DNA of 30,226 nt from a virus. Both the position numbers and the translations under genes were made by a program. The stretch lies in IMG/VR virus record IMGVR_UViG_3300017613_000880, positions 1 through 30,226 of that record. One strand, given 5' to 3'. The notes under the pieces were generated by a model. That model searched no databases, had not been told where the DNA came from, and saw only the letters and a list, made by a program, of their open reading frames with translations. Of the stretch, positions 3,946 to 21,077 are shown in pieces (the stretch's first letter is position 1; every line of letters begins with the position of its first letter).

Positions 3946-3963
3946 TTTGCAAACTTGTGCAAA
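3946..3963. promoter_or_regulatory. Palindromic operator candidate, copy 1
   Basis: TTTGCAAACTTGTGCAAA contains perfect inverted half-sites TTTGCA and TGCAAA separated by 6 nt. It ends 9 nt before the promoter-like box at 3973 upstream of the portal gene. A second copy differing by one base lies at 10902-10919 in the same kind of position, so it probably binds a dimeric regulator. Confidence 0.6.
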
Positions 3964-3972
3964 AATAATCCT

Positions 3973-3980
3973 TATTTTTA
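3973..3980 (+). promoter_or_regulatory. Promoter-like box TATTTTTA upstream of portal gene
   Basis: TATTTTTA lies 19 nt before the portal ATG in a 74-nt gap, immediately downstream of the palindrome. It matches TAnnTTTA, close to the Bacteroidota -7 element. If transcription starts about 7 nt downstream, the leader is only about 12 nt long. Confidence 0.5.
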
Positions 3981-3999
3981 CATCTTATAAGTCCTCAAT

Positions 4000-5637
4000 A
4001 TGTCTAAACCAGAAGAAGAAAACCAAGATATCCCAGCTTTCGAGAAGATTCGTAGGCTAGATGAGGCGCAAGCTAAGGCAAGTATCGAGAAAAGTTTACT
4101 GCTAAAAGAAGCGCTAACATCAAATAGTGCAGAAGATATCTTCAAAGCACAAGGATATTTACAGAGAAATAGAATGGGTTCTCCTACAGAAAAGGGAGAA
4201 AGTACAGGAAAGTCAATGTTAATTGACCCATATTCACTTAATCAGAGTATGGGATATGCTGAAAAACAGTATACAGTATCCTACCCAGTTCTAAGAAATA
4301 TGGCTAAAGTGCCAGTAATTAAATCAGTAATTGGTACTAGAGTAGAACAAGTAGTAGCATTTGCGGAGCCTCAAAAAGATAAACATTCAACAGGATTTGT
4401 AGTAAGGCCTAAGAGAATTAAGCCTGGTCAAGAAGATAAAGAGAAGCTTACCAAGCAAGAAGAAAGAGATATTGAGGAAATAACTGAATTTGTATTAAAC
4501 TGTGGAACAGCAGATAACGAGTGGCACGGTGATACATTAGATTCATTAATAAGAAAATTCATACCAGATTCATTAACACTCGACCAAGGAACATTTGAAG
4601 TTGTAAGAAACAACATGATGGAACCTACAGAGGTAATTGGAGTAGATGGTGCAACATTCAGAATAGCAGATAGTTGGGACGACGACACTTATATGGGTGA
4701 TAAGGAAGAGATAGATGGTCACTACCCTTCATACGTTCAAGTATGGGATGGTAAAATAATCAATGACTTCTATCCTTGGGAATTGTGTTTCGGAATAAGA
4801 AACCCACAATCAAGTATCTATTCGAACGGATATGGAAGAAGTGAATTAGAAGATTTGATGCAAACAGTAACATCTATCTTACATGCAGACCAATATAATG
4901 CTAACTATTTCAAGTTAGGAAGTAATCCAAAAGGAATATTAAAAGTATCTGGAAATGTAAACACTTCTAGGATAGATGAATTAAGAGGCCAATGGGGTGC
5001 TCAAATGGCAGGCGTACAGAATGCACACAGAATGCCTGTAATAGAAGCAGACAAATTAGACTTCATTAACACACAGACTTCTAATAAGGATATGGAATAC
5101 TCACAATACTACGAGTTCCTAATCAAGATTACATGTGCATGTTATAAGATAGACCCGGCAGAGATTGGGTTCCCATTACCAGGAGGAGCTAACTCAGCGC
5201 CAATGTTCGAAGGTAATAATGAGGCAAGATTAAAGTATTCTCAAGATAAAGGGTTAAAACCATTATTGAAATTTACAGCAGCTAGAATCAACAAGTACAT
5301 TGTAAGCTATATGAAGGGAGGTAAATACGAATTTGTATTTGCAGGGATAGATAGTGAAACAGCAGAACAAGAGTTAGAAGCTGATATTAAGAAAATGGGA
5401 GCGGGCCTAATGACACTAGAAGCAGGATTAGCTAAGTATGGCCATAAGTTCGATGAAGAGAAAGACATATTATTGAATCCAGTATATCTACAGTATAAGC
5501 AAATGGCTGCTGCTGGGGGAGGGGAATCAGATGAGTATATGGATGAAGAGTACGGATACGAGGACGAAGAAGATGAAGAAGAAAATCCATTCGAAACAGC
5601 GTTTCAAAAAAGTTGGGATATATTAAACGAAAATTAA
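4000..5637 (+). CDS. Portal protein (545 aa)
   Basis: The portal is the dodecameric ring at one head vertex through which DNA enters and leaves. This protein has the length and features of the family: an N-terminal flexible region, then SYPVLRNMAKVPVIKSVIGTR introducing the core, an alpha/beta wing around residues 135-260, the tunnel-region segment with MPVIEADKLDFINTQTSNKD about residues 347-366, and the IDPAEIGFPLPG loop near 385. The last 45 residues are strongly acidic and end in FQKSWDILNEN. It is the first gene behind the palindrome and box at 3946-3980. No terminase precedes it, so the packaging ATPase must lie elsewhere in the genome. Confidence 0.9.
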   Translation: MSKPEEENQDIPAFEKIRRLDEAQAKASIEKSLLLKEALTSNSAEDIFKAQGYLQRNRMGSPTEKGESTGKSMLIDPYSLNQSMGYAEKQYTVSYPVLRNMAKVPVIKSVIGTRVEQVVAFAEPQKDKHSTGFVVRPKRIKPGQEDKEKLTKQEERDIEEITEFVLNCGTADNEWHGDTLDSLIRKFIPDSLTLDQGTFEVVRNNMMEPTEVIGVDGATFRIADSWDDDTYMGDKEEIDGHYPSYVQVWDGKIINDFYPWELCFGIRNPQSSIYSNGYGRSELEDLMQTVTSILHADQYNANYFKLGSNPKGILKVSGNVNTSRIDELRGQWGAQMAGVQNAHRMPVIEADKLDFINTQTSNKDMEYSQYYEFLIKITCACYKIDPAEIGFPLPGGANSAPMFEGNNEARLKYSQDKGLKPLLKFTAARINKYIVSYMKGGKYEFVFAGIDSETAEQELEADIKKMGAGLMTLEAGLAKYGHKFDEEKDILLNPVYLQYKQMAAAGGGESDEYMDEEYGYEDEEDEEENPFETAFQKSWDILNEN

Positions 5638-5646
5638 GAGGAAGAG

Positions 5647-6171
5647 ATGAACAGAGCATTAACGTATATAGTGGAAACATTCGGATTCGCAGATTGGACC
5701 GATTACACAACATCAGCATTCCACTCAAAGCAAATAGGTTTATTCGTAGCCTCGTCAATGGTAATCTCAACAATAAATGCAGCAGTACAAGAGTACTTAG
5801 GGTTAAAGCCAGCATTAGTATGTGCTATCTTAGTGTTACTCTTAACAGAGTTATTAACAGGATTAGCTTCAATACAGAAAAGAAAACAAGTATTTCAATC
5901 AAAGAAATTCTCAAGGTTCGCGTTAAAAGCTTTTATGTGGGTAGTATTCATTTACATAATACGTCAATTCAGAGAACAATTTATAGATACAAACTTAGCA
6001 GCATTCGAACTATTCGATTGGGCTCACACAGGATGTTTAACATATATGTGTCTAGAGTACCTTATATCAGTAGATGAGAACGTAGCAACAATTACAGGAA
6101 AGCCAAACACATTCTTGAGAATATTAACGAGGAAGATGAAAACCTTTCTTAACATTAAAGACGAAGCATAA
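5647..6171 (+). CDS. Phage holin-like membrane protein (174 aa)
   Basis: There are about three hydrophobic segments (roughly residues 29-47, 54-72 and 90-107). The segment LVLLLTELLTGLASIQKRKQVFQSKKFSRF is typical of the phage_holin_4 type family: a transmembrane helix with a small-residue motif, then a basic loop with SKK before the next helix. Holins form lesions in the inner membrane that let the lysis enzymes out or trigger membrane collapse. The gene begins 9 nt after the portal gene and overlaps the next start by 1 nt. A holin between portal and head genes, rather than in a terminal lysis cassette, is unusual. Overlapping frames in this stretch are not coding. Confidence 0.8.
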   Translation: MNRALTYIVETFGFADWTDYTTSAFHSKQIGLFVASSMVISTINAAVQEYLGLKPALVCAILVLLLTELLTGLASIQKRKQVFQSKKFSRFALKAFMWVVFIYIIRQFREQFIDTNLAAFELFDWAHTGCLTYMCLEYLISVDENVATITGKPNTFLRILTRKMKTFLNIKDEA

Positions 6172-9080
6172 TGGAATTTACAACAGCAAAAGGATTACAT
6201 GCATTAAGGAAGTTTGATGATAATGCGGTAGAACATATCGCTAAATCATTGAATACTAAATTCAATAAGGGAGTAATCTCTGAAGAATCATGTGAGAAGG
6301 CATTTAATCAGCTCGACACGTTAATATCTAAATCTGGGAATAGTAAGTATACAAAGAGAACAGGAGCTCCTGGGAATTACTCTTATGAATATGGAACACC
6401 AAACGCCAAGAGAGCTGCTAACAAGAAAGATGTAGCTAGTCAGTCATTAAAAGAGAAGACAGATGAGGCCAAATACGAGGCAGTCATCAAGAAGATTGAA
6501 GCGAACCCTGAGAGCTGGCCGGAAGGTGCATTAAAGGATGCCAAGGAAGACCTGAGGGTACTGAGGAAGCAGAATGCAAGAATGGATGAGCATAGAGCTG
6601 GGGGCGATGCTAGGGCTAGAAAAAGAGCTCTAAGAAAAGAGCTAAAGCAACACCTAAACAAAGTTTACGATTCGGGCGTTACGGGTCAAACGATAAAGAT
6701 AACCAAAGTAGATGTACTAAACACTACTATGCAATTAGGCGGGGTAGATGCCAAGACAATCAAGGTACCCAACAAAGAGGCCCTGAGTAGAATAAAGTCA
6801 GCCGTGACCGCAAGTGAGACTGAGCGCAATATCAAGATGGCTATGTTAGGTGGTGCAGAAGAGGCTCCATTAAGAGAATTAGCGAAGTTAGCGGAGAAGA
6901 ATAAGTTAAGCAAAGCAGAATCCCTTGCTATATTAAATGGTGAAGAAGATATGTTCTATAAGGCACAGCCAATAGGAACTGTCAATAAGCATGGGAAGAT
7001 AAAAACTGCTGAAGGGTGGGTTTATCAAAAGAAGGGTCAAAGAGCTAATGGTGGGAAGGTAAAGAAAGTAGAGAGTAAATTTGGTCAAAAGAAAGGTGTA
7101 ACATTCAAAGAAATATTAGAAGATAGAAGTGAGGGTGGTGCAAGGAGCATAGTTGACTCAATAGAAGAGTATGTAGGTGACCTAAGAGACCAGCCTGAGA
7201 GAAAGGAGCACATGTCAGGGTTAAGAAGTAAAGTAGCCGAGTTAAAAGAAATGACAGGATATAAGTATGATATCAGCGAACAGGAAGCTGCATACGAAGG
7301 CACTAAAGCTGCCACAGAAGCTCCACAAAAGAAAGAGGAGGCGGGAGCTGCAGGCGGCGAACCACACATCACGCTAAACATCAAATCCAAAGACGCATAT
7401 AACGAAATGATTAGCGTGCTACAAGGTATGAATGTTAATCATCGAAGAGAAACAAAAACAACGATAAGAGTATACACTAGTGCTGCTAATAATTTTCCAA
7501 CAGACAAAGCAGCAATACGTCATATCAAATACAACAAATACGTCGATAGTGTAGACGAATCAATCGATGGAGAAGTTAATAAATCAGAATCACTTGCAAT
7601 ACTAGAAGGAACAGAAGAGGAGTTCTACAAAGCAGCAGCTATTGGAACTGTAAATAAATACGGTAAGATTAAAACAGCTAATGGTTGGGAATACCAAAAG
7701 AAAGGTAGAAAAGGAACAACAGTAGGAAGTGGGGCTCCAAAAGATAAGCCTAAGGCGAAAGCAAAAAAAGATATAGGGCCTAAAACGAAATTTGATGTAG
7801 GTGCGATGGTGGAGCTTAATTCAGCAGGCTCTATACTAATTGGGAATGCGATGGTGGATGGTCATAAGATGAGAGTGCTTAGAACAGTAGACTCAGGACT
7901 AACTTCTCAACCAAAGTTTCTTGAAGTAGTGGATGAGGATGAGAATGTGCATGAAATAAATCCAGCGCACGTTAAGATGGTAGGTGAGAAGGACCAGCCA
8001 ACACCTACGTCGACAACTCCTAAACCTAAGAGAAAGAAGTTCACAACAATAGCTGAAAGAATATTGGGTGAAGCTAATGAAAGAAAAGAGAAAGAGGCAG
8101 CGGCCAAGAAGGCCAAAGAAAGAGCTAAACCTAAGAAAAAGAAGAAAGGTACTACTGGCTATGAAAACTATGATGTGGAGAAAGAGGCTAAGTTTCAAGT
8201 AGAAGCTTCCGCTATAAGGGAAAGAGAAGTTAAAAAGCTCCTCCCTGAAGGAGAAAGGTATTATGCTCACGAGGACCATCTTAACCCCAAGAGAACCACA
8301 TATGTGGGCGATAAGGAGGCTAGTAGAATTAAGGGATTGTTTAAGAAGATAGGTAATACTCCGGGTCATGACACGGACCTACCTAAAGACTTAGGGCTTA
8401 CAAATACTAATTTCAAGAAACATAAGCTAGATATGGGTGATATGCGAGGGATAGCTAAAGAAGGAAGAAGTCACCGTCAGACACCTGAGAGGATAAATAG
8501 AAAAGTTAAGACAGCAGCAGCTTTAATGTCTAAACCCAAAGTAACAGCGGAACTGAAAAGGATTGAGAAGTATGCAGAGAGTAAGGGATTAACAGTAACG
8601 ATTAATGCCATGACTAGTAATTCTAACAGCGGAGATTCGGGGAACTTACATGTATCTTTTTATGAAAAAGATTGGAAGCGTAGTGGAACTAGCAGGCAGT
8701 TCGGTACAGTAATAACCTTTGATAAGGCAGGTAACTATGAATACATGGACCTGAATGATAAGCTCGAATCAGGTAGACCTGGAGAGTGGAACCCTAACGC
8801 AGATGTAGATAACTACAAGGCACTAAAGGCTTATTCAGAAGCTATGAACCCTGACCACATATCTGACGGGGGTAAGGAGATAAAGCCATATGTTAGCCCT
8901 GAAACTTTTTCAGTAGAATTAAGAGAGCCGTCTGAAGATGGGGATGATTATTCAGAAAACCACTACGACTTTGAGACAAAAGCCGAAGCAATGAAGTTTG
9001 CCAATAAGCATGCAGGTCAAGTCCATAGTGTATTACATTATGAAGAGGGTCAGAATTCAGACCCTAGAGACCTTTGGTAA
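6171..9080 (+). CDS. Large modular virion-associated protein with duplicated tags (969 aa)
   Basis: Function unknown, but the domain layout is visible. Residues 27-72 are the helical tag shared with the AAA+ protein (ISEESCEKAFNQLDTLISKS, then KYTKRTGAPGNYSYEY). Residues 268-289 and 491-512 are two copies of the beta tag (GKIKTAEGWVYQKKG and GKIKTANGWEYQKKG), each preceded by a helix with the pattern K-x-E-S-L-A-I-L-x-G and then FYKA. Between them, about residues 400-480, lies a small alpha/beta unit. About residues 545-605 form an SH3-like unit similar to the start of the 21125 protein. A Lys/Glu-rich helix (620-665) leads to two unrecognised C-terminal domains (about 690-840 and 860-969). 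Overlap with the holin gene by 1 nt. Probably an internal or injected head protein; this is inferred from the tags and position. Confidence 0.75.
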   Translation: MEFTTAKGLHALRKFDDNAVEHIAKSLNTKFNKGVISEESCEKAFNQLDTLISKSGNSKYTKRTGAPGNYSYEYGTPNAKRAANKKDVASQSLKEKTDEAKYEAVIKKIEANPESWPEGALKDAKEDLRVLRKQNARMDEHRAGGDARARKRALRKELKQHLNKVYDSGVTGQTIKITKVDVLNTTMQLGGVDAKTIKVPNKEALSRIKSAVTASETERNIKMAMLGGAEEAPLRELAKLAEKNKLSKAESLAILNGEEDMFYKAQPIGTVNKHGKIKTAEGWVYQKKGQRANGGKVKKVESKFGQKKGVTFKEILEDRSEGGARSIVDSIEEYVGDLRDQPERKEHMSGLRSKVAELKEMTGYKYDISEQEAAYEGTKAATEAPQKKEEAGAAGGEPHITLNIKSKDAYNEMISVLQGMNVNHRRETKTTIRVYTSAANNFPTDKAAIRHIKYNKYVDSVDESIDGEVNKSESLAILEGTEEEFYKAAAIGTVNKYGKIKTANGWEYQKKGRKGTTVGSGAPKDKPKAKAKKDIGPKTKFDVGAMVELNSAGSILIGNAMVDGHKMRVLRTVDSGLTSQPKFLEVVDEDENVHEINPAHVKMVGEKDQPTPTSTTPKPKRKKFTTIAERILGEANERKEKEAAAKKAKERAKPKKKKKGTTGYENYDVEKEAKFQVEASAIREREVKKLLPEGERYYAHEDHLNPKRTTYVGDKEASRIKGLFKKIGNTPGHDTDLPKDLGLTNTNFKKHKLDMGDMRGIAKEGRSHRQTPERINRKVKTAAALMSKPKVTAELKRIEKYAESKGLTVTINAMTSNSNSGDSGNLHVSFYEKDWKRSGTSRQFGTVITFDKAGNYEYMDLNDKLESGRPGEWNPNADVDNYKALKAYSEAMNPDHISDGGKEIKPYVSPETFSVELREPSEDGDDYSENHYDFETKAEAMKFANKHAGQVHSVLHYEEGQNSDPRDLW
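6972..7037 (+). repeat. Coding repeat: beta tag, copy 1
   Basis: This 66-bp stretch encodes residues 268-289 of the 969-aa protein, including GKIKTAEGWVYQKKG. It matches copy 2 at 19 of 22 residues and the copy in the 21125 gene at 19 of 22. Nine of the 19 residues shared with copy 2 use different codons, so the protein, not the DNA, is conserved. Confidence 0.85.
7641..7706 (+). repeat. Coding repeat: beta tag, copy 2
   Basis: Encodes residues 491-512 of the same protein, including GKIKTANGWEYQKKG. It is preceded, like copy 1, by a short helix ending FYKAA. The spacing between the two copies is 223 residues. Confidence 0.85.
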
Positions 9081-9642: not shown

Positions 9643-10122
9643 ATGAAGATAGTAGTAAAAAGAATAGCAGATAATGGAGATAGCACTATGGGTGCTTTAT
9701 ACATAAACGGAGTATTTGAATGTTTCACAATAGAAGACGAGAAGAGAGATGAGAAAGTATTGGGTGAAACAAGAGTTCCAGAAGGCGTTTATAAAATCAG
9801 TCTAAGAAGCGAAGGTGGATTCCATAATAGATATTCAAAGAAATATGGAAAGATGCACAAAGGAATGTTATGTATCCACAATGCACCCCATTGGAAAATA
9901 GAGAAAGCAGGAATGACATTCCAATATATTTTGATTCATACAGGCAATACTGACGACCATACTATGGGGTGTTTATTAGTAAATGATGCTGTAAGTGGAA
10001 AAACATTCTCTGGAAGCTCTAGTGTAGATGCATACAAAGATTTCTATCCTAAAGTAGCACAAGCTATATTGGATGGGTTTAAAGTAACAATTGAATATAT
10101 AGATATAGAAGAAGGGAAGTGA
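9643..10122 (+). CDS. DUF5675-like protein, candidate cell-wall lysis enzyme (159 aa)
   Basis: The protein matches the pattern of DUF5675 proteins: an N-terminal beta sheet (IVVKRIADNGDSTMGALYI, then CFTIEDE), a GETRVPEGVYKISLR strand pair, and the signature QYILIHTGNTDDHTMGCLLV at residues 94-113. H99, H106 and C110 in that signature resemble the His-Cys arrangement of L,D-transpeptidase folds, so a peptidoglycan-related activity is plausible. There is no signal peptide, so export would need the holin. Its place between membrane proteins and a spanin candidate supports a role as the lysis enzyme; no other lysozyme, amidase or peptidase is visible. Residues QYILIHTGN recur nearly intact (8 of 9) in the AAA+ protein. 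Confidence 0.75.
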   Translation: MKIVVKRIADNGDSTMGALYINGVFECFTIEDEKRDEKVLGETRVPEGVYKISLRSEGGFHNRYSKKYGKMHKGMLCIHNAPHWKIEKAGMTFQYILIHTGNTDDHTMGCLLVNDAVSGKTFSGSSSVDAYKDFYPKVAQAILDGFKVTIEYIDIEEGK

Positions 10123-10172: not shown

Positions 10173-10892
10173 ATGGACTTAAACAATCGAAAAAACCAAA
10201 TCATAATAGTGCTCCTGATTATTGCAGGCATTCTATTATTCAAATCTTGTAGTGATAATAGGGGGTTAAAAGAACAAGTAGCTCTATATGAGGCGTCTCA
10301 AGATACATTGATACAAACAAGAAACGCATTAGGTCAAGAGAAAACCTCTACAGCATTAATGAAAGCTTCCAATAAGAAAGCGTTCTTAAAGATGCAATCA
10401 AATGATAGTACAATAATAGCCTTACAAAAGGTAGTTAAGGAATACAAAGGAAAACTATCAGTAGCAACTGTGTTAGTTAATTCTACGAACGATAACGGTA
10501 CTTCAGCCACTACTACAAGTTATGATACAATAAAGACTGACACGGGAAGTATTATACATCCAGTATTTAGAACTAATTGGGATGAGAGATGGAGTAGGGG
10601 AAATATCATAGCTTCTAAAGATTCTATAACAAGAGACATTCAAGTAAGGAATGAATTCGAAATTACTCAAGGGAAAGAGAAGCAAGGGTTTTTAAAAAAA
10701 AAGAAATCTCTGGTCACTATAAAGAACCTAAACCCCAATACAGTAACTACAGAACTAAAGACATTTACCATTCAAACACAAAAGAAGAGATTCAGTGTAG
10801 GAATAGGTGCAGCATATGGTTTGGATATAACAAGCTTCAAAACCACAATCGTAATCGGTCCAACAATTCACATGCCATTAATAAGCTGGTAA
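10173..10892 (+). CDS. Candidate spanin: inner-membrane anchor, coiled coil, C-terminal beta segment (239 aa)
   Basis: Residues 9-23 (QIIIVLLIIAGILLF) form an N-terminal membrane anchor. Residues 30-95 are a coiled coil (EQVALYEASQDTLIQTRNAL and on through LQKVVKEYKGKL). The rest is beta-rich, ending with KRFSVGIGAAYGLDITSF and IVIGPTIHMPLI, an alternating pattern like the terminal strands of an outer-membrane barrel. A protein spanning inner membrane, periplasm and outer membrane is what a single-protein spanin needs, and this layout is common in lysis regions of Bacteroidota phages. Cys26 follows the anchor in LLFKSC but does not form a good lipobox. It is the last gene of the lysis group; the second palindrome-promoter unit follows directly. 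Confidence 0.7.
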   Translation: MDLNNRKNQIIIVLLIIAGILLFKSCSDNRGLKEQVALYEASQDTLIQTRNALGQEKTSTALMKASNKKAFLKMQSNDSTIIALQKVVKEYKGKLSVATVLVNSTNDNGTSATTTSYDTIKTDTGSIIHPVFRTNWDERWSRGNIIASKDSITRDIQVRNEFEITQGKEKQGFLKKKKSLVTIKNLNPNTVTTELKTFTIQTQKKRFSVGIGAAYGLDITSFKTTIVIGPTIHMPLISW

Positions 10893-10901
10893 TATAATTA
10901 A

Positions 10902-10919
10902 TTTGCAAACATGTGCAAA
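10902..10919. promoter_or_regulatory. Palindromic operator candidate, copy 2
   Basis: TTTGCAAACATGTGCAAA matches copy 1 at 3946-3963 in 17 of 18 bases; the only change is in the 6-nt spacer, and both half-sites TTTGCA/TGCAAA are intact. It ends 18 nt before the promoter-like box at 10938, against 9 nt at copy 1, a shift close to one helical turn. Confidence 0.6.
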
Positions 10920-10937
10920 TAACAGAATAGTTTTTAT

Positions 10938-10945
10938 TATTTTTA
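10938..10945 (+). promoter_or_regulatory. Promoter-like box TATTTTTA upstream of AAA+ gene
   Basis: The same TATTTTTA box as at 3973, here 26 nt before ATG 10972 in a 79-nt gap and downstream of the palindrome. The repeated palindrome-plus-box arrangement is the best evidence that these are real control sites. Confidence 0.5.
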
Positions 10946-10971
10946 GAGATTATAGGCTAAAACGAAATTAA

Positions 10972-12489
10972 ATGAAACAATACACTACACTAGCAGAGCT
11001 CAATACTCTCACTAAAATAACGGGAAGTAGCGTGGTAGGTGCCGTAGATGCACTTAATAAAAGCTTCAAAGAAGAAAAGATTAGCTCACAAGACTTTGAA
11101 AAAGCACTAAGTCAACTTGACAACCTTATCGAGAAGTCAGGGAACGGGAAGTATTTCAAAGCAAACACTACACCAGGAGAGTGTCAGTATATCCTTATTC
11201 ATAAGGGTAATGCAGCAGAGATTGAGAAATCAATCAACACTGCTAAGCTTACCAAGAAGACAATTCAGGTAACAAATAAGAAAACAGGAAAAACATATAC
11301 TACTACAAGGTATGTAAAGACTGGAACTGATGAGTCAGAAGACACTGGGCATTCAGTAAAAGAAATACATGACCCTCAATATGAGGCAAATGATGTTAAG
11401 GTACTCGAAGCCATTATCGAAAGAGAAGGGCCTAAGTCAGCTAAAGTAAGGGATTTAATTGCTTTAGGTATATATGACAAGAAAGCTATCTTAGCTATGA
11501 CAGGTGCAGCCAATGCGCAAGTGTATACAGAATTCAAGAAATTAGATATTCAAGGATTAGATGCTAAACCTACTACAGGTGGAACAGGAGAAGATATGCC
11601 AGCACATGATGGTGGTGGTTTTCCGCCAGCTGATATGAGTGACCTAAGTGCTAAGAAGGTTCACAAGATAATGGAAAGGCAAAGAGCTAAGAGAAGAGAA
11701 GAGTCAGGGATTAACTACAAAGATTTCTGGACATCTTATGAAAATACCTTAGAAGGAGTAATATTAGATGGTTATCCAAAATCATTAATTGCTTACGGAA
11801 CAGGTGGTTTAGGTAAGACATTTACATTAGACCAAGTAAAAGAAAGATTACAAGTAAGAGAATACGACGAAGAAATCGACCCAACTCCAGAACAATATGA
11901 TGCAGTTACTATTAAGGGAACTACAGGATTAAGGGATATGTGGAATATCATTGTTAAGAATAGGGACAAATTAATCGTATTTGATGATGCTGATTCAATG
12001 TGGGGTCACGGAAAAGAAGAGCAACAAAACATTCTTAAAGGGATGTTAGATACTTCAGGTGACGGTACAGTGAGATATGGTAACGCAGGTAAAGATGAAA
12101 ACAAGCAGCAAATACCTAAGCAGATTAAATTTACTGGCCAAGTAGTATTCATCTCAAACTTAGAAAGAAAAGATTTCCCACAACCATTGATTTCAAGTAG
12201 ATGTGGCGCAATCGATTTAACTATGACCAAAGATGAAACAATGGACAAGTTAAATGACATTAAAGATTTAATTCAAATAAAAGGAAAAGGTCAAGTACCT
12301 ATTGATATATCACCGGAATCAAGGCAAGCAGCTTATGAATTCTTTGTAGACCACAAAGATGAGCTTGACATCGGACAAATAAATGGTAGAACATACGCTC
12401 AAGTAGCGCAGATTCACAATAGGTTTACTAGACAAGGTAATACTGATGGCTTCAATAATGCAGCTTTAATTAGAATGAATCTTGTATAA
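10972..12489 (+). CDS. AAA+ ATPase with an N-terminal virion-type tag (505 aa)
   Basis: Residues 28-73 form the helical tag (ISSQDFEKALSQLDNLIEKS, then KYFKANTTPGE), 23 of 46 residues identical to the start of the 969-aa protein. After a linker (about 80-215) comes an AAA+ core: Walker A G276-TGGLGKT-T283, Walker B LIVFDDAD at 334-341, sensor-1 asparagine N396 in VVFISN, and a likely arginine finger R410 in SSRC. The C-terminal part (about 425-505) is helical. AAA+ proteins use ATP to remodel proteins or DNA as rings. The core resembles phage AAA proteins of unassigned role rather than clamp loaders or terminases. Being behind its own palindrome and promoter and among head genes, with a tag shared by structural proteins, it may be packaged; it could instead be an assembly chaperone. 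Confidence 0.85.
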   Translation: MKQYTTLAELNTLTKITGSSVVGAVDALNKSFKEEKISSQDFEKALSQLDNLIEKSGNGKYFKANTTPGECQYILIHKGNAAEIEKSINTAKLTKKTIQVTNKKTGKTYTTTRYVKTGTDESEDTGHSVKEIHDPQYEANDVKVLEAIIEREGPKSAKVRDLIALGIYDKKAILAMTGAANAQVYTEFKKLDIQGLDAKPTTGGTGEDMPAHDGGGFPPADMSDLSAKKVHKIMERQRAKRREESGINYKDFWTSYENTLEGVILDGYPKSLIAYGTGGLGKTFTLDQVKERLQVREYDEEIDPTPEQYDAVTIKGTTGLRDMWNIIVKNRDKLIVFDDADSMWGHGKEEQQNILKGMLDTSGDGTVRYGNAGKDENKQQIPKQIKFTGQVVFISNLERKDFPQPLISSRCGAIDLTMTKDETMDKLNDIKDLIQIKGKGQVPIDISPESRQAAYEFFVDHKDELDIGQINGRTYAQVAQIHNRFTRQGNTDGFNNAALIRMNLV

Positions 12490-12501: not shown

Positions 12502-12675
12502 ATGGAAAACCCAGGAAAATCAAATCACTTTAAATTAAAAACTAACGAGGAGTTAGAAGCTCAGCTTAACGTTTATCTTACAATGGATAACTTAGGTGGT
12601 GTGTTAGCGGATGATATTATAGATGAGCTGTCGAGAAGACAGAATATTTCAGACAACGAAACAATAGAAGAGTAA
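12502..12675 (+). CDS. Small acidic protein between AAA+ and metalloprotease genes (57 aa)
   Basis: ATG 12502 opens a frame of 57 codons ending at TAA 12673-12675, one base before the next start codon. The product (MENPGKSNHFKLKTNEELEA, then YLTMDNLGGVLADDIIDELSRRQNISDNET) is acidic and largely helical. It fills the only gap between the two genes and follows the same spacing rules, so it is probably real. An acidic two-helix protein between an ATPase and a protease might be an adaptor or inhibitor of one of them; this is only a suggestion from position. Confidence 0.65.
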   Translation: MENPGKSNHFKLKTNEELEAQLNVYLTMDNLGGVLADDIIDELSRRQNISDNETIEE

Positions 12676-12676
12676 G

Positions 12677-14848
12677 ATGGCTAGAAAGATGCCCGTAGGC
12701 ACAATTAGGCAATGGAGTAGTGGGGCTGTAATTAAGGCGCACGAAAATTCACAATTCGGAAACGGGTGGGTTCCATTATCTACGTCTACAGCATTAGAGA
12801 ATATAGGTCACGCTTGTGATAGAGCTGCTAATTCTATGATACACAAGAAACTTCCAATTAACGGGGAGAAATTCTTAGACCATGAAATATCAGATTTCGA
12901 AAGAAAAGATGGACAGAAGCATGGTAAGTATACACCAAATGACTTTAAGAAGTATACTATGGGGCAGTACTCTTTTAGAGAAGAGTTCAGTAGAAGATTC
13001 ATGAAGCCTAAATTAGATGCTTGGGCTAAGATAGATGAAGAGCTAGATGATGCTAATAGAAGGAAAGGTGAAGAGCAAGGATTATCTTGGGAAGAGATAA
13101 ACAAATCAGTGCTCCTAACCTCAAGTGAGATAAAAGAGATAAAAGCTCGTGTCAGAGCTAATATGGTCTATGACCCTGATTATTTTACAACGAAAGAGGC
13201 TAAAGAACTCCATGACATTGTAATGAGGACTAAAAAGCAGCTAGATAGAGGATTGGATTTTGAAGGAGATGAGAAGAAGGCTTATGATAAAGCACTCAAG
13301 ATAGCTAACAGTATCCCAGAATCATATGACCAAGTTCCTGTAAAAAAGGAATTGATAAGACAAACAATGGATGATATGAATGAAGCGTTCGCAGATAATT
13401 GGGGCGTAAGAACATCATTCAAGACATACTTAGAAGACAAATACAGCGAATACTTTCAGAAGTACAAAAAACAAATATTCATAGATGAGGGTGCTAGGCA
13501 AGAGAAACTGTTCGGTGTTACAATAGATGAAGATGCTTCAACATTCTATCCTAAGCTAAGTAGCAGAATGGGTAGTATGTCAGTAGAGCAACAACAAAAG
13601 GAATTACCCTTTGAGGAATTAATTGAATTAAGATTCGAAGCATTATACTCAAAGCAAGTAAAGGGTGAATGGACAGGTGCATTAATACCCGCACTTGAGA
13701 AGATAGAGAAAGCAATAAACTTCCTACCAGAAGGTCATTGTTTATCAAATGACAACCTAAGACAAATCACACAACAAGATTATGATGGAGGTTCTCATGG
13801 TGGATATGCATGGTATAGTCCAAGTACTAAGAGAATTAATTTATCTTCAGAGGCTGCTAGTGAAGCCAATGTATGGGGTAGAGTAGGGGAATTTAATGAA
13901 TTCGAATCTACACTATATCATGAAATAGGTCACTCAGTAAGTCAAAAGCTAGGGAGAGCCAATTCATTAAAGTACAAGTATTTTGTAAAAGAATGTGGTT
14001 GGTCATATTCACAGCAAGCAGCAAAAGAAGAAAACGGTTTTGTAGCTACAGGAGACCAAAAAGATGTCGTGAGGGAAGGTAGTAGACAACACATACCTTT
14101 ACTAACACAATATGCACATAAATCTCCAGAAGAAGCTTTTGCTGAATATTACAGTCTATATGCAACAAACAAAGAAGCAATAGATAAATGGTTAAAGACA
14201 GGAGATGAAAGACCTTTACATAAAAAGGAATATTTTGGAATGACCAATATGTTCGGTGGAAAGGAAACAGTTGGTTCAACAATACCAGATAGAACATCTA
14301 TTGACCCAGAAACAAGAGAGAGAGTAGAGAAAGCTGCAGGTGATAGTAACTTAGATGTAGATAAACACATTACAATGGATGTGATTAATCCTTGGCATTC
14401 GAAAGTATCTGATTATGATAAACCTAATTTCTCTGCATACCACAAAGTAAGGCATAGAAAGAATTGGGGGTTAGAGAAAATGCCTCCAGTAATAGCAGTA
14501 GGTCATAGTGGAAAATATGAGATAATAGATGGGGCCAATAGAAGGGAACAGGCTAAGATGAACAAATTCATGTTACCCTCTATCGTAGTATCTAAGGAAT
14601 TACATAACCAATTAACCATGAAGGGTCTTGGCAATGAAGAGATAATTAATTATGCATACAGCATGCATAAGAACTCAAGAGTGCCTAAACCCGCAGAAAA
14701 GCCAATAAAAATACAAGGTCTTGACTATAGAGGTCAGGTGATTTCAACAAAGGATATTAAGAAGAGTGAACAGATATTCCGAAGAATGAGAGGAATTTAT
14801 AACTCACCAGAGCTTCAGAAAGCATTAGAAGTTGTATCTTTAGGGTAA
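12677..14848 (+). CDS. Zinc metalloprotease with N-terminal tag and ParB-like C-terminal domain (723 aa)
   Basis: The first 36 residues carry a divergent beta tag (VGTIRQWSSGAVIK and GNGWVPL). Residues about 60-300 are helical. The protease core has H415-E-I-G-H419 in STLYHEIGHSVSQ and a second acidic helix EEAFAEYYSLY, with E490 or E486 as the likely third zinc ligand, so a gluzincin-like enzyme. Residues 602-640 (MPPVIAVGHSGKYEIIDGANR, then VV) match the nucleotide-binding fold of ParB/sulfiredoxin-like proteins, with the D-G-x-N-R motif at 618-622. Protease and ParB-like domains in one chain are not a combination I know as a named family. Likely targets: head proteins, or host proteins if the enzyme is injected. 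Start 12677 is one base after the preceding stop. Confidence 0.85.
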   Translation: MARKMPVGTIRQWSSGAVIKAHENSQFGNGWVPLSTSTALENIGHACDRAANSMIHKKLPINGEKFLDHEISDFERKDGQKHGKYTPNDFKKYTMGQYSFREEFSRRFMKPKLDAWAKIDEELDDANRRKGEEQGLSWEEINKSVLLTSSEIKEIKARVRANMVYDPDYFTTKEAKELHDIVMRTKKQLDRGLDFEGDEKKAYDKALKIANSIPESYDQVPVKKELIRQTMDDMNEAFADNWGVRTSFKTYLEDKYSEYFQKYKKQIFIDEGARQEKLFGVTIDEDASTFYPKLSSRMGSMSVEQQQKELPFEELIELRFEALYSKQVKGEWTGALIPALEKIEKAINFLPEGHCLSNDNLRQITQQDYDGGSHGGYAWYSPSTKRINLSSEAASEANVWGRVGEFNEFESTLYHEIGHSVSQKLGRANSLKYKYFVKECGWSYSQQAAKEENGFVATGDQKDVVREGSRQHIPLLTQYAHKSPEEAFAEYYSLYATNKEAIDKWLKTGDERPLHKKEYFGMTNMFGGKETVGSTIPDRTSIDPETRERVEKAAGDSNLDVDKHITMDVINPWHSKVSDYDKPNFSAYHKVRHRKNWGLEKMPPVIAVGHSGKYEIIDGANRREQAKMNKFMLPSIVVSKELHNQLTMKGLGNEEIINYAYSMHKNSRVPKPAEKPIKIQGLDYRGQVISTKDIKKSEQIFRRMRGIYNSPELQKALEVVSLG

Positions 14849-15108
14849 TGAATGAACCAAATTCAATAGAATTTCCATTATTCTCAGCAACTCAAAACGA
14901 GAAAGGTGAGTGGATTTATAAGTCTAAACCTATAGAACCAAAGAAGAAGGATGGTCGATTAAAGAAAAGATACAAGGACTTACCAAGAGTAAAGGCTATT
15001 TACGAGGTAGAGGCAGCATTCAGCGAATCATATAAGAAGGAAGTATTAGATTCATCCATGAAGGAGATAAATGATAAACTAATCGAATTTTCACGTGCTA
15101 GAGGCTAA
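14848..15108 (+). CDS. Small basic protein, function unknown (86 aa)
   Basis: It starts on the stop codon of the protease gene (TAATG) and overlaps the next gene by 14 nt. The N-terminus has a short strand-like stretch (IEFPLFSATQNEKGEWIYKS), then a basic segment KKKDGRLKKRYKD and a C-terminal helix. Such small proteins often accompany minor head genes. No domain can be assigned. Confidence 0.65.
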   Translation: MNEPNSIEFPLFSATQNEKGEWIYKSKPIEPKKKDGRLKKRYKDLPRVKAIYEVEAAFSESYKKEVLDSSMKEINDKLIEFSRARG

Positions 15109-16021
15109 ACAAATATTAGAGCTACTTTCTATTATAGAAAAGAACGGGATTGTCTTTATAGCAAAGAATCTCGGACCAAACTATTTAACAGAGCTAGAAT
15201 TAGAGAGATTAGGTAGGATGGGGATTAACCCAAGCAACTTATATCTTCCAGAGAAAGACTTTATACTACAACAATTCTATTTAGGGCTCATATCAGATGC
15301 TATGGGTAAGGATGTTCAGAAAGTAACATTTCAAGATATCAAGGAACATCTAAAAGCAGGTAAGTATAGACCAACAACTTTTAGAGAGAAAGCAACCATT
15401 GAATCAATAAGAAAACAATTCCTAGGGGATATTAGGGGTGCTAATGGAAAGGTATTTGCTAATGTTAATGGAATAATCAATCAAAATGAAGTTCGTAATA
15501 GAGCAGCATATGAGAAAGTAATAAGAGATGAAGTTGAAGCTGGTACTATTAAGAAGAAAACAAATAGACAAATAGCTAGTGATATTCATCATAAGACAGG
15601 TGATTGGTCAAGAGACTTTGATAAGATAGTTGAATACATAGGACACCAAGCATTCGATGAGGGAAGAGCTGCGTTGTATGAGAAGCAAGATGGAGAAGGG
15701 GCACAAGTATATAAAGATGTTTATGCAGGCGCATGTAAGCACTGTGTCAGATTATATCTAACAGGTGGAGTAGGAAGCAGACCTCTTGTATTTAAGTTAA
15801 GTGAATTAAGAGCGAACGGAACCAATATAGGAAGAAGAGTTGCAGAGCTAAAACCAGTAGTGGGGTCAACACACCCATATTGCAGATGCACCCTAAATAG
15901 ACTAGAGAAAGGAATGGTTTGGGATGTGGAGCAAGGAAAGTTTATCAGAAATAAAGAGATTAAAATCGTAGGAAGGAAGCCTGTCAAAATAACTTTTAAC
16001 AATAAAGAGTATAACGTATAG
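15095..16021 (+). CDS. MuF-like minor head (head morphogenesis) protein (308 aa)
   Basis: The protein has the features of the Mu gpF / SPP1 gp7 family of minor head proteins: a helical N-terminal two thirds, then a C-terminal metal-site-like domain with C214/C217 in GACKHC and H260, C263, C265 in STHPYCRC, with VYKDVYAG and ELKPVVGSTHPYCRCTL around them. Such proteins sit with the portal, are few per virion, and may be ejected with the DNA. The start is a GTG at 15095, overlapping the previous gene by 14 nt; no upstream ATG is available in this frame. Unlike many MuF proteins it has no extra C-terminal toxin domain, ending about 40 residues after the cysteines. Confidence 0.85.
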   Translation: MLEAKQILELLSIIEKNGIVFIAKNLGPNYLTELELERLGRMGINPSNLYLPEKDFILQQFYLGLISDAMGKDVQKVTFQDIKEHLKAGKYRPTTFREKATIESIRKQFLGDIRGANGKVFANVNGIINQNEVRNRAAYEKVIRDEVEAGTIKKKTNRQIASDIHHKTGDWSRDFDKIVEYIGHQAFDEGRAALYEKQDGEGAQVYKDVYAGACKHCVRLYLTGGVGSRPLVFKLSELRANGTNIGRRVAELKPVVGSTHPYCRCTLNRLEKGMVWDVEQGKFIRNKEIKIVGRKPVKITFNNKEYNV

Positions 16022-16924: not shown

Positions 16925-17500
16925 ATGAAAAGATGGGATATAATTAACCATTTTATAGAAAAGTATAATTACAGTACTTATTTAGAAATCGGTTGTCAGA
17001 AAGACATTGCCTTCAAGAAGGTAAAAATAGCAAATAGAATTGGGGTAGACCCCGAACAAGGAGGAACTCATCGCATGACTAGTGATGAGTTCTTTTCTAT
17101 GAATAAAGAAACGTTCGATATAATCTTTGTGGATGGCCTTCATCATGCAGACCAAGTACAGAGAGATATTGAAAATTCATTACTAGTATTAAATGAAGGT
17201 GGAACAATTGTAGTACATGATTGTAATCCAACCTCAGAAGATATGCAAAGGGTTCCTAGAATAACAAAGGAATGGACAGGTAATGGATGGATAGGTTGGG
17301 TAGCATTACGTATGACTAGACCTGATTTAGACATGAAAGTAGTTAATACTGATTATGGATGTGGTGTAATTAGGGTCGGAAAACAAAAAGTATTGGAAGT
17401 AGGATGTGCTCCATGTACTAAAAAGTACAAGAGTTTCGCTGCAAACAAAAGGACCTGGTTGCCACTTATTGAAGTAAAAGACTTCACTAAGTTTTACTAG
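16925..17500 (+). CDS. SAM-dependent methyltransferase, class I (191 aa)
   Basis: The Rossmann-like fold is visible: motif I YLEIGCQ at residues 19-25, an acidic residue after the next strand in IGVDPEQGG, and IIFVDGLHHADQVQRDI followed by LLVLNEGGTIVVHDCNP, which are the motifs of the Methyltransf_24-like group. These enzymes commonly methylate sugars in surface polysaccharides or glycans. It opens a run of six sugar-related genes (16925-21077), so O- or N-methylation of a glycan is the most likely job. Confidence 0.85.
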   Translation: MKRWDIINHFIEKYNYSTYLEIGCQKDIAFKKVKIANRIGVDPEQGGTHRMTSDEFFSMNKETFDIIFVDGLHHADQVQRDIENSLLVLNEGGTIVVHDCNPTSEDMQRVPRITKEWTGNGWIGWVALRMTRPDLDMKVVNTDYGCGVIRVGKQKVLEVGCAPCTKKYKSFAANKRTWLPLIEVKDFTKFY

Positions 17501-17503
17501 GAA

Positions 17504-18286
17504 ATGAAAACAATTGTTTATACAGCCAATATAGGTAACTACGACCACATTGATATGCCTGCTTTCAGGTCACTCAATCCCGATGTAGAATTTATCTTAT
17601 TTACAACAGACTTAAAATACAAGTCAGATGATTGGACTGTAAAGTATGTTGTAGACCCAAAGCTTATAAACGAAGATAATCAGAGAGTAGCAAGATACTT
17701 CAAACTACAACCACATAAAGTACTACCGCCTCATGATGTTAGTATATGGTTCGACAGCTGCTTGTCATTAAAGATAAAGAGCTACAAGAAATTCCTTAAA
17801 GAAAACCTTATAGACAGAGATTTAGAGATGGTGTCATACAAGCACCCTCTAAGGAACTGTTCATATGTAGAAGCAACTGTTTGTATGAGTATGGGGTTAG
17901 ATAATGGAATAAGAATCAAAAGGCACATGGAATCATATAGGAAGCAACGTTTTCCTAAAAACTTCGGTTTGTTCGATACTGGATTAGTAGTAAGAGTAAA
18001 TACGCCAAAAATGGTGGAGTTTAATGATTTGTGGTATACAGAGCTGAAAGCTAAGAGTAAAAGGGACCAACTATCACACCCATATGCAGTATGGAAAACA
18101 GGTATAAGGATAGCATCATTTCTAAAGGGAAGTAAAAAGGGGGCATCTCCTTATCTAAAAAAGAGAAAGCATCGAACAGGAAGAATAAGGATAGGTGGTG
18201 CACTCCAAACATCAAAACCCAAAAGAACAGAGGCTCAAGATGCTCTAAATAGAAAATTAGCATTTAAAAGGAGGATGAGAAGATGA
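17504..18286 (+). CDS. DUF616-type glycosyltransferase with basic tail (260 aa)
   Basis: It shows the GT-A-like motifs of DUF616 glycosyltransferases: an N-terminal strand IVYTANIGNYD, R-x-A-R-Y-F-K-L-Q-P-H-K-V-L-P at 61-75, the acidic SIWFDSCLSL at 80-89 standing in for the DxD motif, and later FGLFDTGLVVR and SKRDQLSHPYAVW. These transfer a sugar from a nucleotide donor to a glycan. The last 45 residues (SPYLKKRKHRTGRIRIGG to FKRRMRR) are strongly basic and not part of the usual domain. The start is 3 nt after the methyltransferase stop; the stop overlaps the next start (ATGA). Confidence 0.8.
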   Translation: MKTIVYTANIGNYDHIDMPAFRSLNPDVEFILFTTDLKYKSDDWTVKYVVDPKLINEDNQRVARYFKLQPHKVLPPHDVSIWFDSCLSLKIKSYKKFLKENLIDRDLEMVSYKHPLRNCSYVEATVCMSMGLDNGIRIKRHMESYRKQRFPKNFGLFDTGLVVRVNTPKMVEFNDLWYTELKAKSKRDQLSHPYAVWKTGIRIASFLKGSKKGASPYLKKRKHRTGRIRIGGALQTSKPKRTEAQDALNRKLAFKRRMRR

Positions 18287-19140
18287 AATTAGCAATAGCA
18301 ACAAGTAAAAAGAAATCAAAATACGGACCAATAGCTGATGCACTTCAGAAATCAGGTGTAGTGGATATAGTGTCTTTAGCAGACCAATCAAACTTCCACG
18401 AATACGACCACATCATTGTATTTTACAATAAGGTGCCAGAGATAGTGAATAGACCGAAAGGGAAGATAGCTTGGTGGATGAATGATTTAAGAAAACCAAC
18501 AGACCTACTGCCTTTGAAAGACTATAACTTCGATGATATCTTTATATGTCATAAAACATATGATAAAGAATACAAAGAGTTTTACAAAAAACCCCTACAC
18601 TATATGCCTCAATGTGGGCATGCAGCTCCTTTAGAGAAAGGGAGAAAGATTGAATGGGATATGGTTTTTCTGGGAAATGCGAAGAGCAACAGATATTATC
18701 ATAAGGACAGAGCACCGTTTATCGAGAAAGTAGGTAAGGCTGTTAGGTTAAAGAATATCACGGGAGAAGGCCAAACAAAAGACCAACACTGGATATATAA
18801 CCAATCAAAGTATAGTTTAGCAATGAGTTTCCCAATGATAGAGGGAACTTCAAATAGATTATACAATATTCTGTCATCTGGAGGGTTCTGTATAACTAAG
18901 TACTATCCGGGATTAGAAAAGCAATTTAGGCATGGGAAGCATTTAGTGTGGTTCCATAATGCAAAAGAGTGCATGGAATTAATAGAATACTACAACACTC
19001 ACGAAGAAGAAAGAAAGAAGATAGCGAAAGCAGGCCACGAACAATATCTAAAGAAACATACTGCAGCTCACAGGCTACACAATATGTTTGATATTATGAT
19101 GGGGAAAGAAACTGAATTTAGAGGATATATAAATGAGTGA
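18283..19140 (+). CDS. Glycosyltransferase, CgeB/GT-B-like (285 aa)
   Basis: The C-terminal half has the donor-site layout of the Glyco_trans_1_2 / CgeB group: WDMVFLGNAKSNRYYHKDR, YSLAMSFPMIEGTSNRLYNI with E at the donor ribose position, LSSGGFCITKYYPGLEKQF, then ECMELIEYYNTHEEERKKIA and a final HTAAHRLHNMF. The N-terminal half forms the acceptor domain, with DHIIVFYNKVPEIV. It probably adds a sugar to a glycan acceptor. It overlaps the flanking genes by 4 and 8 nt, so it is in the same operon as both methyltransferases. Confidence 0.8.
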   Translation: MKLAIATSKKKSKYGPIADALQKSGVVDIVSLADQSNFHEYDHIIVFYNKVPEIVNRPKGKIAWWMNDLRKPTDLLPLKDYNFDDIFICHKTYDKEYKEFYKKPLHYMPQCGHAAPLEKGRKIEWDMVFLGNAKSNRYYHKDRAPFIEKVGKAVRLKNITGEGQTKDQHWIYNQSKYSLAMSFPMIEGTSNRLYNILSSGGFCITKYYPGLEKQFRHGKHLVWFHNAKECMELIEYYNTHEEERKKIAKAGHEQYLKKHTAAHRLHNMFDIMMGKETEFRGYINE

Positions 19141-19627
19141 TTATCTATATGGAAATGTAATGAAGCAACTAGGGAAGAGAGAAAAGATTCTTCAGCTAGG
19201 ATGTGGCGTAGGTAGCCTAGGTAAGCTTATGCTGTATAGTAATTACAATTATGTGAGAGGTGTAGATGTAGCAGATAGGGTTATTGCATCAGCAAAAGCA
19301 AGTATGCCGACCAGACATAAAGATAAGTTCATACAAGGATATTTTGATGATGACCATGTATATGATGTAGAATACGATGCTGTAATATGTGTAGAGGTAT
19401 TTGATTATGCAGATTGCGACATACCCATATTGGATTGTATCAAGAAAGGTGCTAAAGTATTATTCACAGTACCAGGTCATCCAAATGAAGCTCATCCTAG
19501 ATGGTTTAAGGATGAAAAAGAAATTAAATCGAGATTCAGGAAATCTGTAAGTATTAAAAGCATAACACCTTTAGTCTTCAACGACGACTATTGTAAAACA
19601 TATTTAGTTAACTGTATAAAGAAATAA
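19133..19627 (+). CDS. SAM-dependent methyltransferase, second (164 aa)
   Basis: Motif I is LQLGCGVGSLG at residues 20-30, followed by VRGVDVADRVIASAKAS and the motif YDAVICVEVFDYADCDI, which define a class I methyltransferase. It is short and has no target-recognition domain of DNA methyltransferases. The neighbours suggest a small-molecule or sugar target. It overlaps the upstream glycosyltransferase by 8 nt and is followed by the scar of two deleted genes. Confidence 0.8.
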   Translation: MSDYLYGNVMKQLGKREKILQLGCGVGSLGKLMLYSNYNYVRGVDVADRVIASAKASMPTRHKDKFIQGYFDDDHVYDVEYDAVICVEVFDYADCDIPILDCIKKGAKVLFTVPGHPNEAHPRWFKDEKEIKSRFRKSVSIKSITPLVFNDDYCKTYLVNCIKK

Positions 19628-19628
19628 C

Positions 19629-19739
19629 ATGATTGAAGTAACTGTAGCTCTTCCACCATATAAAGCAAAAGACATAGCCCGACTATGCCCAGAGAGTTTT
19701 TGTAATCAAGTAGATGTTAATTTCGAATGGGAGCTGTAG
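19629..19739 (+). pseudogene. Remnant: N-terminus of a family 2 glycosyltransferase
   Basis: Thirty-six codons from ATG 19629 to TAG 19737-19739 encode VTVALPPYKAKDIARLCPES, then NQVDVNFEWEL, which is the first strand, helix and second strand of a GT2 glycosyltransferase (compare TVxIPxYNAKDxxWLxLESLxNQ). The rest of the enzyme is missing. At its end the DNA passes directly into the tail of a different gene in another frame, so a deletion has joined two genes. Confidence 0.75.
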
Positions 19740-19789
19740 TAAAAGATGTAGAAGATGGAAAAACTATTTACGGTAATCCAGCAAAATAA
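19727..19789 (+). pseudogene. Remnant: C-terminus of a hexapeptide-repeat acyltransferase
   Basis: In the frame +1 to the GT2 remnant, codons from 19730 to TAA 19787-19789 read GAVVKDVEDGKTIYGNPAK. This is the characteristic end of left-handed-beta-helix sugar acetyltransferases (GAVVTKDVPDGxxVVGNPAK). The in-frame ATG at 19727 is accidental. Only the tail survives; the join with the GT2 remnant lies around 19725-19732. Confidence 0.75.
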
Positions 19790-19794
19790 ATAAA

Positions 19795-20343
19795 ATGAAG
19801 ATACCAAGATTACACTTCGTGACACCATATTCCTTTGATAAAAACTTAGGGAAGGCTTATAACGACGAATTTGAGAAAGTAAAAGATGATGATGATTGGG
19901 TTGTACTAATGGATGGTGACTCTCATTTCTTCACAGACTTTGGTCAACAAATAAGAAACCACATAATAGCAAGACCAAATACAGGAATGTTTACTTGTAT
20001 TACAAATAGAGTGGGTAACAAGCAACAATGCTATAAGGGGATGATTAGTGAGAACTCAGATTACCTATATCATGCCAAGTTAGCTAAAGCAGTGGCTAAA
20101 ACAAGTAAGGGGAAAGTTAAACCTTCTACTAGAGTCATATCTGGATTGTTGATGGTAGTTCAGAAAAAGACCTGGAGAGCTGTGGGTGGGTTCCATGAAA
20201 AGGGTATACTGAAGGTAGATAATATTTTTAGCAGGGAGCTATTAAAAAGAAACATACCTATCAATATCATGATGGATGTGTACATGATTCATTATTACAG
20301 ATTCCTAGAAGGAGGGAAATCATTTAGAAAACACTTACAATGA
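19795..20343 (+). CDS. GT-A glycosyltransferase, short phage type (182 aa)
   Basis: The protein has DWVVLMDGDSHFF with the metal-binding DGD at residues 40-42, a TNR motif (ITNRVGNKQQ), and the acceptor-side segment SGLLMVVQKKTWRAVGGF followed by VDNIFSRELLKR and DVYMIHYYRF. These match small single-domain GT-A enzymes of phages of about 180-200 aa, so it appears complete despite its size. It begins just after the deletion scar and overlaps the next start by 4 nt. Confidence 0.8.
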   Translation: MKIPRLHFVTPYSFDKNLGKAYNDEFEKVKDDDDWVVLMDGDSHFFTDFGQQIRNHIIARPNTGMFTCITNRVGNKQQCYKGMISENSDYLYHAKLAKAVAKTSKGKVKPSTRVISGLLMVVQKKTWRAVGGFHEKGILKVDNIFSRELLKRNIPINIMMDVYMIHYYRFLEGGKSFRKHLQ

Positions 20344-21077
20344 AAGTAGATGTAGTATATAAAATAGGGTTAACGGCTGATTGGGGTGATTTCAATGAGC
20401 TAAGATATTCTTTGAGGTCAGTAGAACAGAACTTCAAGGATTTGGGAAAAATATATATCGTAGGACATAAACCGAACTGGGTTCAGAATGTTATTCATAT
20501 ACATGCAAAAGACCCATACAGAACAAATAAAGATGGTAACCTAATCAACAAAATGATTATGGCATCTGTTCATCCAGACATAACTCCTCAGTTTATTAAT
20601 ATATCAGATGACCAATATATGATAAATGAAGTAAGTGCGGAGGACATGAAATACCCACTTATTGACAATTCACATATTCAATTTGTTCCAGGTGCTAAGT
20701 TAAATAGATGGCAGCAAAGATTAAAAAGAACAGTAGAGGTGTTGAAAAAGAATGATTTTAATCACGACTGCTACGAATCACATGCTCCATACTTACTGGA
20801 TTCAAGCAATTATATGAAGACATTAATGCAGTACGATTATGGTGTCGACATAGGATATTGTGGTAACACCCTATATTTCAATTCTATACGAGCGAAAGGT
20901 AGAGTAAAAACCAATAGAGATTTAGTGAGAATACAGAAACCTATGACTCGAGATGCTATAATGAGTAAGCTCTCATACGCCAAATTCCTTAATCACACAA
21001 ACAAAGGGATGAACGATGATTTGGGTAAAATATTAAAAGAAAGATTCCCTAAACAGTCTAAGTATGAAACTTTTTAG
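20340..21077 (+). CDS. Stealth-like sugar-phosphate transferase (245 aa)
   Basis: It begins VDVVYKIGLTADWGDFNELRYSLRSVEQNF followed by KIYIVGH, matching the conserved regions 1 and 2 of Stealth proteins, which transfer hexose-1-phosphate to a polysaccharide. The motif FINISDDQYMI (SDD at 89-91) corresponds to the catalytic NDD. The later SHAPYLLDSSNYMKTL and KGMNDDLGKIL also fit. Such enzymes are rare in phages. It closes the sugar cassette; a promoter-like box follows its stop. Confidence 0.75.
   Translation: MKVDVVYKIGLTADWGDFNELRYSLRSVEQNFKDLGKIYIVGHKPNWVQNVIHIHAKDPYRTNKDGNLINKMIMASVHPDITPQFINISDDQYMINEVSAEDMKYPLIDNSHIQFVPGAKLNRWQQRLKRTVEVLKKNDFNHDCYESHAPYLLDSSNYMKTLMQYDYGVDIGYCGNTLYFNSIRAKGRVKTNRDLVRIQKPMTRDAIMSKLSYAKFLNHTNKGMNDDLGKILKERFPKQSKYETF

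Follow-up and report, generated by a model that had tools for sequence, protein, structure and literature searches.

The window, by which we mean the whole virus record of 30,226 nucleotides (30.2 kb) that was analysed, holds a cluster of head genes and, between those for the portal protein and the head maturation protease, a plus-strand gene for a tagged AAA+ ATPase of 505 residues (10972-12489). The plus strand also carries, in order, the genes for the portal protein (4000-5637; profile matches), a 969-aa protein with a helical tag of the ATPase type plus two hairpin tags (6171-9080; tag comparison), a 57-aa protein directly downstream of the ATPase (12502-12675), a 723-aa protein with a hairpin tag at residues 7-35 and a weak, below cut-off similarity to zinc metallopeptidases (12677-14848; Peptidase_Mx1, E 0.008), a 361-aa hairpin-tagged protein (21125-22210; hairpin model), a 685-aa NUDIX protein with a hairpin tag (22211-24268; profile match and hairpin model), the head maturation protease, presumably with a scaffold region (24294-25883), and the major capsid protein (25950-27428). 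A MuF-like protein (15095-16021) was assigned by our own reading of the sequence, with no profile match. Methyltransferase- and glycosyltransferase-like genes form a run between the MuF-like and NUDIX genes (16925-21077), and a gene for a sigma-70-like factor lies at 249-836. The first-pass annotation had placed the ATPase between lysis and head genes; the head side is certain from the portal, protease and capsid genes, while the lysis side is weaker (a holin family match at 5647-6171, a DUF5675 gene at 9643-10122 and, at 10173-10892, only a sub-threshold DUF6808 match). Judging only from Chryseobacterium phage MA9V-3 and Bacteroides phage DAC16, the host would be a Bacteroidota bacterium; bacterial genomes, when searched for the capsid, yielded no prophage.

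Upstream of the ATPase gene and on the same strand lie the palindrome TTTGCA-N6-TGCAAA (TTTGCAAACATGTGCAAA; 10902-10919) and, after it, TTATTTTTA-N4-TTATA (10937-10954), which bears out the palindrome-promoter unit that had been ascribed to this gene. Perfect copies of both elements occur only twice in the window, here and upstream of the portal gene (3946-3963 and 3972-3989, plus strand), an arrangement that suggests co-regulation with the head genes and is no proof of late expression. On the downstream side, a two-helix ORF of 39-58 aa directly follows the gene in 9 of the 13 ATPases inspected in the tagged clade described below (the window and eight other contigs or phages), and the 57-aa two-helix protein may therefore be a partner of the ATPase.

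In a profile search, residues 226-480 of the ATPase match PHROG 1250, the T4 NrdC.10 family (E 2.9e-20), and by profile and alignment the core is an NrdC.10-type AAA+ module, widespread in phages. This core (aa 247-505, 11710-12486; alignments and AlphaFold) is modelled with pLDDT mostly >90. The AAA+ motifs recognized at first pass all hold, their residues being invariant in a 64-sequence alignment: Walker A GTGGLGKT (aa 276-283, 11797-11820; G276, G279, G281 and K282), Walker B LIVFDDAD (aa 334-341, 11971-11994; D338, D339 and D341), and sensor 1 N396 and arginine finger R410 (12157-12201). The probable sensor 2, R473 (12388-12390), is also invariant, and alignments place in the window ATPase all of the family motifs N-[IL]-L-K-[AG]-x-L-D and F-x-G-x-x-x-F-x-[ST]-N, the SR finger and R473. 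Ahead of the core, AlphaFold predicts at low confidence a four-helix, helix-turn-helix-like region (aa 141-191, 11392-11544), the sequence of which is kept in the ATPase of locus L249. Among proteins of solved structure, those nearest in sequence are clamp-loader subunits (RFC4, E 1.2e-7). An RFC-type clamp loader was considered and set aside, as ~90 N-terminal AAA+ positions align with no full-length match that includes the collar domain, and a fold search further undercuts this reading by returning generic AAA+ proteins and no clear clade. Neither an IMG/VR search with the single window protein directly nor a DNA-level search of the phages collection gave a match; IMG/VR scans yielded 141 distinct ATPases, most with a short N-terminus. 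Many NrdC.10-type AAA+ proteins in the phages collection (e.g., H31, H47 and H59) are labelled 'thioredoxin', a label apparently taken over from the gene name nrdC.10.

The N-terminal tag region of the window ATPase (aa 1-116, 10972-11319) is common to the 969-aa protein and the L249 ATPase, and is modelled by AlphaFold, at low confidence here, as helices at 7-55, a hairpin at 61-75, a helix at 81-90 and a hairpin at 93-116. Residues 3-97 align with the start of the 969-aa protein at 35% identity over 96 residues (55.8 bits, compared with 29.3 bits for the best of 100 shuffles), and the shared helical tag noted at first pass is thus real. The match between the L249 ATPase and that of the window (31% identity, E 4e-52) takes in the helical tag, the helix-turn-helix-like region and the core alike; in L249, a relative of the metallopeptidase-like 723-aa protein comes after the ATPase. 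Adjoining the L249 ATPase is a 599-aa head-cluster protein with NUDIX and ADP-ribosyltransferase (ADPrib_exo_Tox) domains (L249:11461-13260), and possible ferritin-like proteins, picked out by eye from the sequence, lie near the ATPases at L249:17966-18457 and L061:14214-14774. A helical-tag model built from the window has no significant match to the maturation protease; the idea that the tag copies a scaffold segment was dropped for this reason, and recruitment through the tag is accordingly a guess.

In the tree, the tagged clade that includes the window is well supported (100/99) and separate from the tagged groups of T4-like ATPases; how often a tag was gained is uncertain, because the window, T4 and L182 branches are long. 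Each ATPase of this clade bears one of three unrelated tags, and every tag is also found on other proteins of the same phage, mostly within the portal-to-capsid cluster. In MA9V-3, the head genes show synteny with those of the window and the ATPase has the hairpin tag IGARKTFGGREYIKTADGWKYLGKG; the hairpin IGTVxxFGGxxYIKTAxGWKY is shared by the ATPases of MA9V-3, L013, L182 and L187. The hairpin model matches only four proteins in MA9V-3 (~150 genes), all in the portal-to-capsid cluster, and, in the window, the 969-aa, 723-aa, 361-aa and NUDIX proteins. Real matches score 20-44 bits and shuffled proteins at most 7.2 bits; the seeds of the model were drawn from matched proteins, and the scan is therefore informative on absence elsewhere. 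The hairpin variant of the window itself, used as a query, gave no relatives. The DAC16 ATPase bears a third tag, NRKLGRVGMTY (NRKLGRVG), which is present on five proteins, two of them between the portal and capsid genes and ~80 kb from the ATPase gene, so that mere neighbourhood cannot explain tag sharing. One feature expected of a capsid-targeted internal head protein, an N-terminal tag that also occurs on proteins of that phage known or presumed to belong to the head, is present in the window ATPase.

Some relatives depart from the usual gene structure. The ATPase ORF at L182:5945-8674 (also L193:4574-7303) encodes 887 aa from its likely start, and an intein-like insert, ALSLDADIITPNGIVKNKDLSVGMEV, appears to interrupt the L182 AAA+ core after VKITGK. 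At L233:10923-13250 and L242:17760-20231 the ATPase core ends proteins of 775-823 aa whose N-terminal parts resemble the L249 NUDIX-region protein, a sequence relationship that suggests gene fusion. In Bacteroides phage SJC03 (L011:11873-12573), the ATPase gene looks truncated or frame-shifted and is annotated as two CDS.

The T4-type consensus MKTYxEFIxEA is absent from the window N-terminus (MKQYTTLAELNTLTK) and is met in T4-like relatives only. In 24 T4-like ATPases, 177-308 residues lie ahead of the core, and most of these extended proteins begin with a T4-type capsid-targeting sequence (MSFKQFLTEA, MRFTDFINEA and MINFFNFLSEA, compared with MKTYQEFIAEA in T4 IPII and IPIII). With long and short N-termini divided at 130 residues, 15 of 27 long ATPases have the pattern [ILMV]-x-E-[AGS] among their first 30 residues (2.5 expected, and no more than 7 in any of 200 shuffles), as do 15 of 113 short ones (8.9 expected). 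Among the neighbours of long ATPases, 46 of 353 ORFs have T4-type starts (9.6 expected), whereas the neighbours of short ATPases are near background (45 of 2027; 31.5 expected). Of the long ATPases, 7 of 23 have the T4 late-promoter core ATAAATA no more than 60 nt upstream, and of the short ones 0 of 113 do (shuffled expectation 2.2 and 5.2, respectively; Fisher p 1.7e-6, p-values for the T4-like comparisons being guides, as related contigs are not independent), and the exact core is absent upstream of most extended T4-like ATPases. T4 NrdC.10, for which a targeting sequence had been expected, is untagged instead, with a short N-terminus of ~75 residues unlike any tag. Comparison with untagged relatives, proposed at first pass, places these (such as T4 NrdC.10 and those of nACB2 and RDJL2) among early or replication genes, as would be expected if an ATPase of the ordinary cytoplasmic kind had been taken on as cargo of the head.

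Five putative maturation-protease sites of the form [ILVFM]-x-K|[SAG] lie in the window tag (LNK|S 28, FEK|A 42, IEK|S 53, IHK|G 76 and IEK|S 84; 11053-11232, plus strand), whereas 0.78 would be expected among the first 100 residues (2 of 5000 shuffles gave so many); a sixth copy, the family motif ILKG, is the sole match in the core. The motif is most enriched in the maturation protease (20 copies in the window, where 3.2 are expected, 21 in MA9V-3 and 12 in L013, against ~3), with the ATPase second in each of the three, and the window capsid protein has a putative site, LLK|A, at residue 20. Having been picked on the window, MA9V-3 and L013, the motif was then tested on new contigs found via the MuF gene, a set in which a few contigs recur under different locus names: 29/29 maturation proteases lie above all 200 shuffles (mean 18.1 vs 3.3), 33/33 capsid proteins carry the motif in their first 45 residues, and portals hold 4.3 copies (2.2 expected), compared with 1.1 in the MuF control (1.5 expected). 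Pooled N-terminal extensions of 13 clade ATPases contain 49 sites vs 20.1 expected (0 of 1000 shuffles as high), although in the ATPases of L187, L182 and DAC16 the count is no more than modestly above chance; 100 untagged relatives also contain 49, vs 43.6 expected. From the motif statistics alone, the motif is most naturally read as a site at which the prohead protease would cut after lysine; HK97 likewise cuts its capsid protein after a lysine. As a putative prohead-protease code the motif is lineage-wide, occurring in the window protease and in L179, L180, L185 and others.

We consider it probable (roughly 70%) that the window ATPase is a capsid-targeted protein, which is cut when the head matures and probably leaves it together with the DNA. 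The sequence supports the family, the catalytic residues, the tag sharing, the motif enrichment and the co-regulation signal; packing, cleavage, ejection and substrate are inferred. The ATPase would be expressed together with the head genes and recruited into the prohead by its N-terminal helix-hairpin tag, which the maturation protease would cut after the lysine of the [ILVFM]-x-K|[SAG] motifs; the trimmed ATPase would then stay in the head beside the tagged cargo, the 969-aa, metallopeptidase-like and NUDIX proteins. Most likely, it would be ejected with the DNA and act first in the new host, possibly with the ~57-aa two-helix protein as its partner. Ejection is supported by this cargo-like company (NUDIX, metallopeptidase-like and, in L249, NUDIX plus ADP-ribosyltransferase), the last of which recalls T4 Alt, an ejected head protein. 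The target would probably be DNA or DNA-bound complexes, the likeliest choice because of the helix-turn-helix-like region and the clamp-loader-like sequence similarity. The first-pass interpretation is supported in part. Its proposal of a virion or assembly component is well supported by comparison, in that ATPases bear their phages' own head-cluster tags or T4-type targeting sequences, and further by the clustering of putative cleavage motifs in the tag and the palindrome unit common to the portal gene; the papers searched contained no virion proteome of these phages.

Much of the same evidence could be claimed for a prohead assembly chaperone, whose tag would bind the scaffold and which would remodel portal, scaffold or cargo and then be destroyed or released rather than ejected: the gene stands among the head genes, with that for the portal on one side and that for the maturation protease on the other, it has its palindrome unit in common with the portal gene, putative protease sites fall within the tag, and such roles have been proposed for other phage AAA+ proteins, BCS1 and ClpX (Iyer et al. 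2021, PMC7824862). However, the untagged relatives, encoded with replication or early genes, give no hint of a head-assembly function for the core, the DAC16 ATPase gene is far from the head genes, and the core should survive maturation because the putative sites lie in the tag and its sole match is the family motif ILKG; we therefore regard such a chaperone as unlikely. An ordinary cytoplasmic ATPase, a replication or repair accessory standing among head genes by chance with its tag as a generic protein-interaction domain, would agree with the occurrence of the core family beside replication or nucleotide genes in T4-like and other phages and with the similarity to RFC4. It is made improbable, and more so than the chaperone, by tagging that is recurrent and lineage-specific, by the T4-type targeting sequences of the T4-like relatives, by the presence of the DAC16 tag on distant head-gene products and by the late-type promoter association.

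The combination of an AAA+ core with a helix-turn-helix-like region, and a portal gene ~5 kb upstream, could also point to a protein that stays in the head, either assisting the motor that packages the DNA or organising DNA at the portal. Yet no link to terminase genes is seen within the window, and the tag recurs on proteins that resemble enzymes (NUDIX, metallopeptidase-like), company more in keeping with a set of cargo proteins than with a motor; we hold this explanation to be highly improbable.

With a capsid-targeted, probably ejected ATPase as the preferred reading, the wider pattern is that related motors in unrelated phages bear those phages' own head-packing tags, on which ground phages probably inject the motor with their DNA. 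More tentatively, as a possibility that we would not yet call probable, several tailed-phage lineages may independently have turned the same AAA+ motor into a machine dedicated to injection. Each phage would pack it by a cargo code of its own and, in the window lineage, a lysine-specific maturation protease would trim it; delivered with a small two-helix partner, it would be the first ATP-driven protein to remodel DNA or host complexes as infection starts. The analysis connects head packing with a functionally uncharacterized ATPase that is common in phages and often goes under the wrong label 'thioredoxin', and the cargo code proposed for the lineage, a tag plus an x-K|[SAG] site, could predict further injected proteins from sequence, as the T4 targeting sequence does.

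Among known systems, T4 NrdC.10 shares its AAA+ core with the window ATPase, down to the invariant residues of Walker A/B, sensor 1, the arginine finger and sensor 2. It differs from the window ATPase in having no tag and in that its gene lies in a region with nrdC, tk and denV, which we take to be early. A weak AAA match is the only one published for it (PMC1524935). T4 IPI-III have an N-terminal head signal of the kind borne by the T4-like ATPases here; the window tag, by comparison, is longer, consists of helix and hairpin, and has putative sites with lysine, not glutamate, before the cut. The T4 capsid-targeting sequence carries a prohead-protease site. As an N-terminal signal, it brings unrelated proteins into the head (PMC3012670). 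In the Dar ejection system of P1, a large enzyme is packed by an N-terminal signal, as proposed for the window ATPase, although DarB acts against restriction. DarB has a helicase domain. This 250-kDa protein is packed into the capsid via 30 N-terminal residues and is thought to enter the cell (PMC9024508), so the first-pass remark that phage heads do not as a rule contain ATPases besides the terminase is fair but not absolute. The excerpted report on crAss001 (PMC10172136) describes protein cargo in the head with ejection, and that on SPN3US (PMC10052503) gives AxE as the protease motif code, to which the putative lysine motif of the window lineage is comparable. As described in these excerpts, the crAss001 capsid cargo and the SPN3US ejection proteins are head cargo of the sort proposed here, but different proteins, with no mention of an AAA+ cargo in either. 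On the best explanation, the window ATPase belongs with the known internal head or ejection proteins.
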